NCBI RefSeq assembly: GCF_000231405.2
Contig: NZ_CP007032.1
Coordinates: 1,302,001 to 1,366,000, forward strand
Reading direction: 5' to 3'
From: Desulfitobacterium metallireducens DSM 15288
Lineage (GTDB): Bacteria > Bacillota > Desulfitobacteriia > Desulfitobacteriales > Desulfitobacteriaceae
DNA: 64,000 nucleotides
The translations under genes and the position numbers were made by a program. Of this stretch, positions 7,053 to 7,920 are shown piece by piece; the stretch's first letter is position 1, and the number at the start of each line of letters is the position of its first letter. The notes under the pieces are model-generated. The model had not been told where the DNA came from. It saw nothing but the letters and a program-made list of their open reading frames with translations, and made no database searches.

Positions 7053-7244
7053 GTGAATTCTCAAATTGCAGACTTATGCCGCTTAATTGAGGAAGTGCGT
7101 GAGGAACTAATTCAATTAGGTGCGAACAAACCCTTTACAGATCCAGAAGTTGTAAAGATTAGCCAAGAGTTAGATCAATTGCTGAATGAATATGAATTTC
7201 TGAGGCATGACGATAGATACGAATTTGAGCGTAAATGGGCTTGA
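7053..7244 (+). CDS. Spo0E-like aspartyl-phosphate phosphatase
   Basis: 63-residue, almost wholly helical protein with the signature SQELD at residues 32-36 (VVKISQELDQLLNEY). That motif defines the Spo0E family of phosphatases, which remove phosphate from Spo0A and so delay sporulation. The length is typical of the small clostridial members. GTG start with AGGAAAGGA at 7032-7040. The stop is 12 bp before the first of two pho-box-like arrays, and a candidate Spo0A box lies upstream. The family is certain from the motif; the actual target response regulator is inferred. Confidence 0.85.
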   Translation: MNSQIADLCRLIEEVREELIQLGANKPFTDPEVVKISQELDQLLNEYEFLRHDDRYEFERKWA

Positions 7245-7256
7245 AACAGACACATC

Positions 7257-7322
7257 TTTCACAAATATTTCACACCGTCTTAAGGTAACATTCAGGTATC
7301 TACGGAAAAATTGGGCTACAAT
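7257..7322 (+). promoter_or_regulatory. pho-box-like repeat array 1 with -10 element
   Basis: Hexamers at exact 11-bp steps: TTTCAC (7257), TTTCAC (7268), CTTAAG (7279), ATTCAG (7290) and a poor fifth TACGGA (7301). A -10 box TACAAT (7317-7322) starts 10 bp after the fifth. Hexamer plus 5-bp spacer, repeated four or more times, with no -35 and a -10 about 10 bp on, is the layout of PhoP/PhoB-activated promoters. The exact regulator is inferred. Confidence 0.55.
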
Positions 7323-7328
7323 AATCTT

Positions 7329-7390
7329 GCTTTTAAATATTCAAATCTTCCTTCTCATACCCCACCGAAAAGGTGGGGCTATTTTTTATA
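7329..7390 (+). ncRNA. putative small RNA 1 (pho-box-like promoter to terminator)
   Basis: About 60 nt between the predicted start 7 bp after the -10 and the end of the T run. There is no plausible coding frame. It holds ATTCAAAT at 7339-7346 followed by the pyrimidine tract CTTCCTTCTC (7347-7356), then a GC-rich terminator hairpin. The same two-part core occurs in the second unit at 7700. The pyrimidine tract could pair with Shine-Dalgarno sequences. The existence of the RNA is inferred from promoter and terminator only. Confidence 0.45.
7360..7390 (+). terminator. intrinsic terminator of small RNA 1
   Basis: CCCCACC / GGTGGGG stem with a GAAAA loop (7360-7378) followed by CTATTTTTTAT. Confidence 0.85.
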
Positions 7391-7424
7391 TCGTAGATTT
7401 CTTGTTTCCTTACCGCTGTTATCA

Positions 7425-7495
7425 CATTACAAAATATTGTCGACTCTATCATGTAATATAAAGATAAAGAGATAAGAAATGAAAATTTTGTAATG
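7425..7495. repeat. 11-bp inverted repeat with 49-bp loop
   Basis: CATTACAAAAT at 7425-7435 and its exact reverse complement ATTTTGTAATG at 7485-7495. It lies just before the ribosome site of a 32-codon frame. It could be a leader-RNA stem or a pair of operator half-sites. Confidence 0.5.
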
Positions 7496-7519
7496 AATAA
7501 TAAAGGAGCGTGAATCTTA

Positions 7520-7618
7520 ATGATAAGGAAATGGCGTATTTGGCTTAGTAAACGTGCTGCTGCTGAGCGCAAACAGCAGAACTGGGAGCTATATTTTAAG
7601 AATCAAATAAAGATATAA
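7520..7618 (+). CDS. possible 32-residue basic small protein
   Basis: Reading frame MIRKWRIWLSKRAAAERKQQ and on to KNQIKI, rich in Arg/Lys and Trp, preceded by AAAGGAG at 7503-7509 (spacing about 10, slightly long). It ends 5 bp before the second pho-box-like array. Amphipathic and basic, it could be a membrane-associated or RNA-associated peptide. There is no recognised family; coding is supported only by the ribosome site and plausible composition. Confidence 0.4.
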   Translation: MIRKWRIWLSKRAAAERKQQNWELYFKNQIKI

Positions 7619-7622
7619 GAAG

Positions 7623-7677
7623 TTTCAGCATATTTTCAGGTAACAATCAGGCCTATTTCAGATGAGGGATGTATATT
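7623..7677 (+). promoter_or_regulatory. pho-box-like repeat array 2 with -10 element
   Basis: Four hexamers at exact 11-bp steps: TTTCAG (7623), TTTCAG (7634), AATCAG (7645), TTTCAG (7656). The -10 box TATATT (7672-7677) starts 10 bp after the last. AGGTAACA(T/A)TCAGG is shared with array 1 at the same distance (20 bp) from the -10, so the two promoters look like copies. Confidence 0.6.
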
Positions 7678-7683
7678 AAGGTA

Positions 7684-7759
7684 ATGAAAATTCTTTTTCA
7701 TTCAAATTCCCTTTCTATTTTATAAAACCCGAGGATTAAATTACTCGGGTCCTTTTTAT
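7684..7759 (+). ncRNA. putative small RNA 2 (pho-box-like promoter to terminator)
   Basis: About 75 nt. A perfect 8-bp hairpin, AATGAAAA / TTTTCATT, opens it near 7683-7702. Then come ATTCAAAT (7700-7707) and TCCCTTTCTA (7708-7717), then the terminator hairpin. TCCCTTTCTA shares eight positions with the 16S rRNA 3' tail CTCCTTTCTA, so it could bind ribosome sites of target mRNAs. No coding frame is apparent. Existence is inferred. Confidence 0.45.
7727..7759 (+). terminator. intrinsic terminator of small RNA 2
   Basis: ACCCGAG / CTCGGGT stem (7727-7750) with a 10-nt A/T loop, then CCTTTTTATC. Confidence 0.8.
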
Positions 7760-7804
7760 CAAACTATACCATTAACTAATAATTAACAAATGTCCTCATA
7801 ATAA

Positions 7805-7846: not shown

Positions 7847-7920
7847 TGGCAGGGGATGCAGGAGTTGAACCCACACTAACGGTTTTGGAGACCGCTGTTC
7901 TACCATTAAACTAATCCCCT
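7847..7920 (-). tRNA. tRNA-Trp (anticodon CCA)
   Basis: 74-nt cloverleaf on the minus strand. Acceptor arms AGGGGAT / ATCCCCT with discriminator G and an encoded CCA end. D-arm has AGTTTAATGGTAGA; anticodon loop is CTCCAAA with CCA as anticodon; T-loop is TTCAACT. CCA reads UGG, hence tryptophan. It is a lone tRNA with its own consensus promoter and terminator. Confidence 0.95.

Follow-up and report, generated by a model that had tools for sequence, protein, structure and literature searches.

In activators of the PhoB type, stacked subunits stand in for the -35 element of the promoter. Response regulators with tandem binding sites of this sort can also drive small RNAs, as do those of the csRNAs of the CiaRH regulon, which have been described in streptococci. 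Promoters of the csRNA genes contain the repeat NTTAAG-N5-TTTAAG with ten bases to the -10 box, the RNAs carry a terminator and an unpaired anti-Shine-Dalgarno/anti-AUG stretch, and the regulon includes an htrA gene (PMC3091779, PMC8317062). CiaR has been proposed to replace the -35 element much as the PhoB-type activators do (PMC3091779).

The window, the whole 64,000-nucleotide stretch of the Desulfitobacterium metallireducens DSM 15288 genome analyzed here, contains two short units on the + strand for which the CiaR-dependent csRNAs appear to be the closest analogue. Shared with them are direct repeats for a response regulator, separated by N5 spacers and ending 10 bp before the -10 box, several short RNA genes per genome, a regulon (here a candidate one) with an htrA gene, and, less clearly, an unpaired tract complementary to Shine-Dalgarno/AUG sequences beside the terminator. 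The two systems differ in the hexamer, which is TTTCAG here and not TTTAAG, and in the number of repeats, which is four or five rather than two. The units did not match the csRNA family in Rfam, and the name csRNA is not warranted for them.

Two further systems share some of these properties. Pho boxes are also tandem 11-bp repeats that take the place of a -35 element at the same distance from the -10 box, but the Pho repeat of this genome is TTAACA, whereas the window arrays are of the TTTCAG type. As in CssRS-HtrA, this genome has two-component genes and a gene for an HtrA-type protease in divergent orientation, both with arrays. Unlike in CssRS-HtrA, adjacency to htrA is not kept in relatives, and for that reason we dropped an htrA gene next to the regulator as a conserved feature. 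In a Paenibacillus, the regulator beside htrA (L361) is only 46% identical to the one considered here, while the 75% identical orthologue there (L358) has no htrA next to it. The latter, in Paenibacillus sinopodophylli, has itself no strong TTTCAG array.

In the reading that we consider likely, each of the two units encodes a short RNA acting in trans, its expression depends on a conserved regulator of the PhoB/OmpR family distinct from the Pho regulator, and the pyrimidine tracts lower translation at start sites. Subunits of the phosphorylated regulator would stack on the tandem array of four or five TTTCAG-type hexamers and bring RNA polymerase to the -10 box about 10 bp downstream, substituting for a -35 element. 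Transcripts would stop at the intrinsic terminators, and their exposed C/U-rich tracts would pair with Shine-Dalgarno/start regions of mRNAs, lowering translation. If this is true, anaerobic clostridia-like bacteria have two-component regulators that independently rely on the csRNA-type trick, a tandem-repeat promoter 10 bp from the -10 box driving several redundant RNAs that block ribosome sites.

Layout of the two units

A Spo0E-like gene (7053-7244, Pfam PF09388) and a tRNA-Trp gene (7850-7920, other strand) flank the two units. The earlier note on this DNA had described two units with the same order of array, -10 box, non-coding stretch and terminator, with hexamers at exact 11-bp steps, and the sequence bears this out. 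Neither unit has a -35 box, the -10 boxes stand in helical register with the arrays, and each unit has a 58-78-nt stretch without a conventional gene. The features are as follows.

7257-7306, + strand: unit 1 activator array, TTTCAC at 7257, TTTCAC at 7268, CTTAAG at 7279, ATTCAG at 7290 and a degenerate fifth repeat, TACGGA, at 7301
7306-7311, + strand: unit 1 alternative weak -10 box AAAAAT, spaced canonically from the fourth repeat
7317-7322, + strand: unit 1 -10 box TACAAT, 10 bp past the degenerate fifth repeat
7329-7388, + strand: predicted small RNA of unit 1, about 60 nt long and without a conventional reading frame; covariance model R1 match at 7328-7389
7339-7358, + strand: unit 1 single-stranded pyrimidine tract ATTCAAATCTTCCTTCTCAT, unpaired in the fold and aligned to the family tract
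7360-7388, + strand: unit 1 intrinsic terminator (also placed at 7360-7378), from sequence and fold
7520-7618, + strand: 32-aa reading frame MIRKWRIWLSKRAAAERKQQNWELYFKNQIKI with ribosome site AAAGGAG, between the units
7623-7661, + strand: unit 2 activator array, TTTCAG at 7623, TTTCAG at 7634, AATCAG at 7645 and TTTCAG at 7656
7672-7677, + strand: unit 2 -10 box TATATT, 10 bp past the last hexamer, spaced as in the promoters of the response-regulator gene
7684-7759, + strand: predicted small RNA of unit 2, about 76 nt long, with 5' hairpin, pyrimidine tract and terminator
7684-7701, + strand: unit 2 5' hairpin AUGAAAA/UUUUCAU, from the fold
7700-7716, + strand: unit 2 pyrimidine tract ATTCAAATTCCCTTTCT, from sequence, fold and pairing test
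7727-7758, + strand: unit 2 intrinsic terminator (also placed at 7727-7750), stem ACCCGAG/CTCGGGT, from the fold

A -10 box ten bp after the last hexamer, as first described for both units, is found exactly in unit 2. The last good hexamer of unit 1 is 21 bp away from its -10 box, and the 10-bp spacing is present there only with the degenerate fifth repeat counted. The segment AGGTAACA(T/A)TCAGG does lie 20 bp before both -10 boxes, but it is part of the arrays and not a likeness between the RNAs. Indeed, the two transcript bodies are not significantly similar, as 37.6% of simulated pairs score equally high. This leaves the description of the RNAs as look-alikes unsupported, along with the proposed duplication after the Spo0E-like gene, and we rejected a block duplication because the bodies of units 1 and 2 are no more alike than simulated pairs. 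Placement after the Spo0E-like gene did not prove conserved in the 29 relatives searched, which have no array beside the PHP gene/tRNA-Trp. The genome's second Spo0E-like gene (L007, G000:C1:873789-873942), 71% identical at the DNA level, is without an array or small RNA unit.

The predicted RNAs fold with z = -3.2 for unit 1 and -2.7 for unit 2. The unit 2 RNA has both stem-loops, with its CAU inside the 5' stem, and the unit 1 RNA is without the 5' stem. In both folds, the pyrimidine tract is exposed beside the terminator. The 32-aa frame between the units has no Pfam match. Upstream of it lies a 14-bp inverted repeat, CATTACAAAATATT / AAAATTTTGTAATG, at 7425-7438 and 7482-7495 (93% complementary).

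The probable TTTCAG response regulator and the arrays

The gene for a PhoB/OmpR-family response regulator lies outside the window, at G000:C1:560659-561336, and a histidine kinase gene comes next. A three-hexamer pattern search of the genome found the same arrays before this regulator gene and before the divergent htrA-like protease gene. Arrays also precede genes for a DUF4405 membrane protein, a Zn-dependent phospholipase-C-like protein and small membrane proteins, and a -10-like box is found 10 bp past the last hexamer at nearly all of these arrays. Because the arrays precede the regulator gene, the htrA-like gene and several membrane/envelope genes, the system probably responds to stress of the envelope or of secretion and not to phosphate.

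A matching array with the same -10 spacing was found upstream of regulator orthologues (81-86% identity) in 11 of the 12 examined, the exception being L116, where none was detectable. All 19 genomes with an orthologue of at least 63% identity have arrays, against 3 of the 18 genomes without one (p = 9e-8; 37 genomes). Without counting the arrays of the regulator operon itself, the figures are 12/19 vs 3/18 (p = 0.007). A four-hexamer pattern gave about 55 matches in the 37 genomes, where the reversed control gave 6, and about 75 matches in 16 further genomes, where the control gave 0. If our reading holds, the arrays supply both a candidate regulon and a predicted binding motif for this highly conserved response regulator; the literature searched gave no description of it. 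Its recognition helix, IVEVYIRSLRDKL, is identical to that of CiaR, VVEVYVSKVRKKL, at 7 of 13 positions, and the regulator here probably differs from CiaR.

The earlier note named PhoP/PhoB as the activator of both units. We compared two matrices, one from promoters of the response-regulator gene (this genome and relatives) and one from pst promoters; neither was trained on the window, and both come from small sets. With the response-regulator matrix, the unit 2 array ranks first (30.6 bits) and the unit 1 array second (17.6 bits) among all positions of the window, the third-best position scores 8.9 bits, and the maxima of six simulated 64-kb windows fall between 6.5 and 13.8. The matrix scores and the array geometry are more than chance. 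With the pst matrix, unit 2 scores -15.4 (rank 2706) and unit 1 scores 8.1 (rank 4), within background. The PhoP scan proposed earlier, run with this pst-trained 11-bp matrix, does not single out the two units. Because the TTTCAG-regulator matrix ranks both arrays top and the pst matrix does not, both units are most likely controlled by the conserved PhoB/OmpR-type response regulator and not by Pho.

The pst operon of this genome has three arrays, all of the classical Pho type with TTAACA at 11 bp. Repeats of this type are absent from unit 2, for which Pho control is not supported. For unit 1 it has partial support, through the two distal repeats only: these read TTTCACA, which would do as Pho half-sites, and a relaxed Pho pattern with 9 matches in the genome includes unit 1 among them. 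With the response-regulator matrix, too, TTTCAC has a positive score. Counting against our proposal are the degenerate state of the unit 1 array at 17.6 bits, its two Pho-like half-sites and its imperfect proximal repeat.

Pairing with translation starts

The RNAs tested pair much better with 40 start regions of the window than with coding interiors, but for most of these RNAs composition accounts for it. With the consensus Shine-Dalgarno sequence, units 1 and 2 pair no better than shuffles. A near-complement search with unit 2 returned only unit 2 itself and matches in coding regions, with no convincing start-site target. Against the 40 start regions, unit 1 pairs as composition predicts, with 26 of 100 shuffles equally good. 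Unit 2 beats all 100 dinucleotide shuffles (z = -4.0), and 4 of 100 are equally good when its unpaired part is taken alone. The masking of ribosome sites suggested for both RNAs is plausible. Repression at translation starts is our best guess for what the RNAs would do.

A probable C/U-rich RNA family behind two array types

A search of relatives for units of array, core and terminator, as the earlier note had proposed, found them in other genera. There the array is followed by a short C/U-rich tract and a terminator instead of a gene, at L174 (g5), at L184, L191, L192, L243 and L247 (g7), and at L198 (another family). We built covariance model R1 from five g7 sequences, with no promoter information and with unit 1 held out of training. 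R1 matches unit 1 over 7328-7389 at 27.8 bits, with an E value of 7.7e-4 in the window, and this is also its best match in the whole genome (E 0.038). The genome-wide score is modest alone, and the position right after an independently defined promoter makes chance an unlikely explanation. Unit 2 is not significant by sequence: its match to models R1/R2 is weak and in register, at 9.9 bits (E 0.0064 in 201 bp, 2.1 in the window). Unit 1 most likely belongs to an undescribed multi-copy RNA family, which unit 2 appears to resemble in architecture. At the gathering score, Rfam matched only the tRNA at 7850-7920 in the window and nothing in the relatives' loci tested. A literature search that covered few subscription journals returned no paper describing RNAs of this kind from this bacterial group.

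R1 finds more than 30 further copies in genus g7, with up to nine matches per genome, weak ones included. The conserved part among the relatives' copies is the tract with the terminator. Unit 1 has the tract and the GC-rich terminator in common with the g7 family; it differs in its shorter tract and other stem, and most of the g7 copies are behind Pho-type arrays. Of the 37 g7 members, 22 follow a Pho-type array and 6 a TTTCAG array; the other 9 follow neither. The -10 box nearly always follows the Pho-type arrays at the same spacing, and 0.27% of shuffled upstream sequences reach so high a Pho-type score. Judged by box type, relatives thus may have the Pho-driven small RNA of the earlier note. 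At L239 (G032:C33:101100-101900), one family RNA is preceded by two arrays in tandem, one of the TTTCAG type and one of the Pho type. In genome G019 the search found no close regulator orthologue and no TTTCAG array, yet family members are kept, one of them behind a Pho-type array. Because G019 keeps members without a TTTCAG array, the RNA family exists independently of the TTTCAG wiring. If one RNA family does stand behind two array types, it is a natural experiment on rewiring small RNAs between regulators.

In several g7 members (L318, L292, L321, L333, L239, L200 and L186), a hydrophobic small frame of 25-30 aa (e.g. MNLIITLLLVGMIPSLLRMLLSADLDTES) is conserved between the array and the pyrimidine tract. 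Such members are possibly dual-function RNAs.

Activation of both units of the window by PhoP/PhoB under phosphate limitation, with the RNAs masking ribosome sites, would agree with the 22 of 37 g7 copies behind such arrays and with the distal TTTCACA repeats of unit 1. We find it improbable, as this genome's own pst promoters use TTAACA, the pst matrix singles out neither unit, and the Pho-like repeats of unit 1 lie more than 30 bp above its -10 box. A division of labor has somewhat more in its favor and still seems unlikely to us: unit 1 would answer to the Pho regulator through its distal repeats and to the TTTCAG regulator through its proximal ones, and unit 2 to the TTTCAG regulator only. 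The mixed repeat types of unit 1 and the tandem arrays at L239 speak for it. On the other side, two Pho half-sites located two helical turns above their usual position may be drift within one motif, and TTTCAC is acceptable to the TTTCAG-regulator matrix as well.

The units might instead be short leader or peptide genes. Unit 2 could be read as a leaderless 13-codon frame, with an ATG (7684) at the predicted start of its RNA, or the arrays could drive the neighboring genes by read-through. The hydrophobic frames at L239, L292, L318, L321, L333 and L200 fit a coding role. Unit 1 has no such frame, however, each unit has a strong terminator within 80 nt, and it is the tract and terminator that relatives conserve, which makes this very improbable. 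We continue to favor trans-acting RNAs under the TTTCAG regulator. For the family as a whole, the balance is even on a modular wiring, in which an undescribed C/U-rich RNA family of about 60-100 nt, multi-copy and spread within this bacterial order, would be tied to two PhoB/OmpR-type regulators by interchangeable 11-bp arrays (TTTCAG and Pho-type TTMACA) and would answer phosphate or envelope signals by copy, parallel to the streptococcal csRNAs and not descended from them.

Model scores alone are no proof of family membership, as R1 also hits a conserved C/U-rich element that lies upstream of holA and is unrelated to the family. This strongly conserved element, GAACATCTCTTTTCTCCTCCTCTTTCTTT with a hairpin and a T-tract, has no Rfam match. 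It occurs across many genera just upstream of an apparent holA gene (DNA polymerase III delta), often after a comEC-like gene, the gene names being read from translations. It is found in this genome (L388, G000:C1:2604300-2605400) and at L303, L305-L308, L310, L313, L315 and L316, and may encode a short leader peptide (NISFLLLF...) or act as an attenuator RNA.
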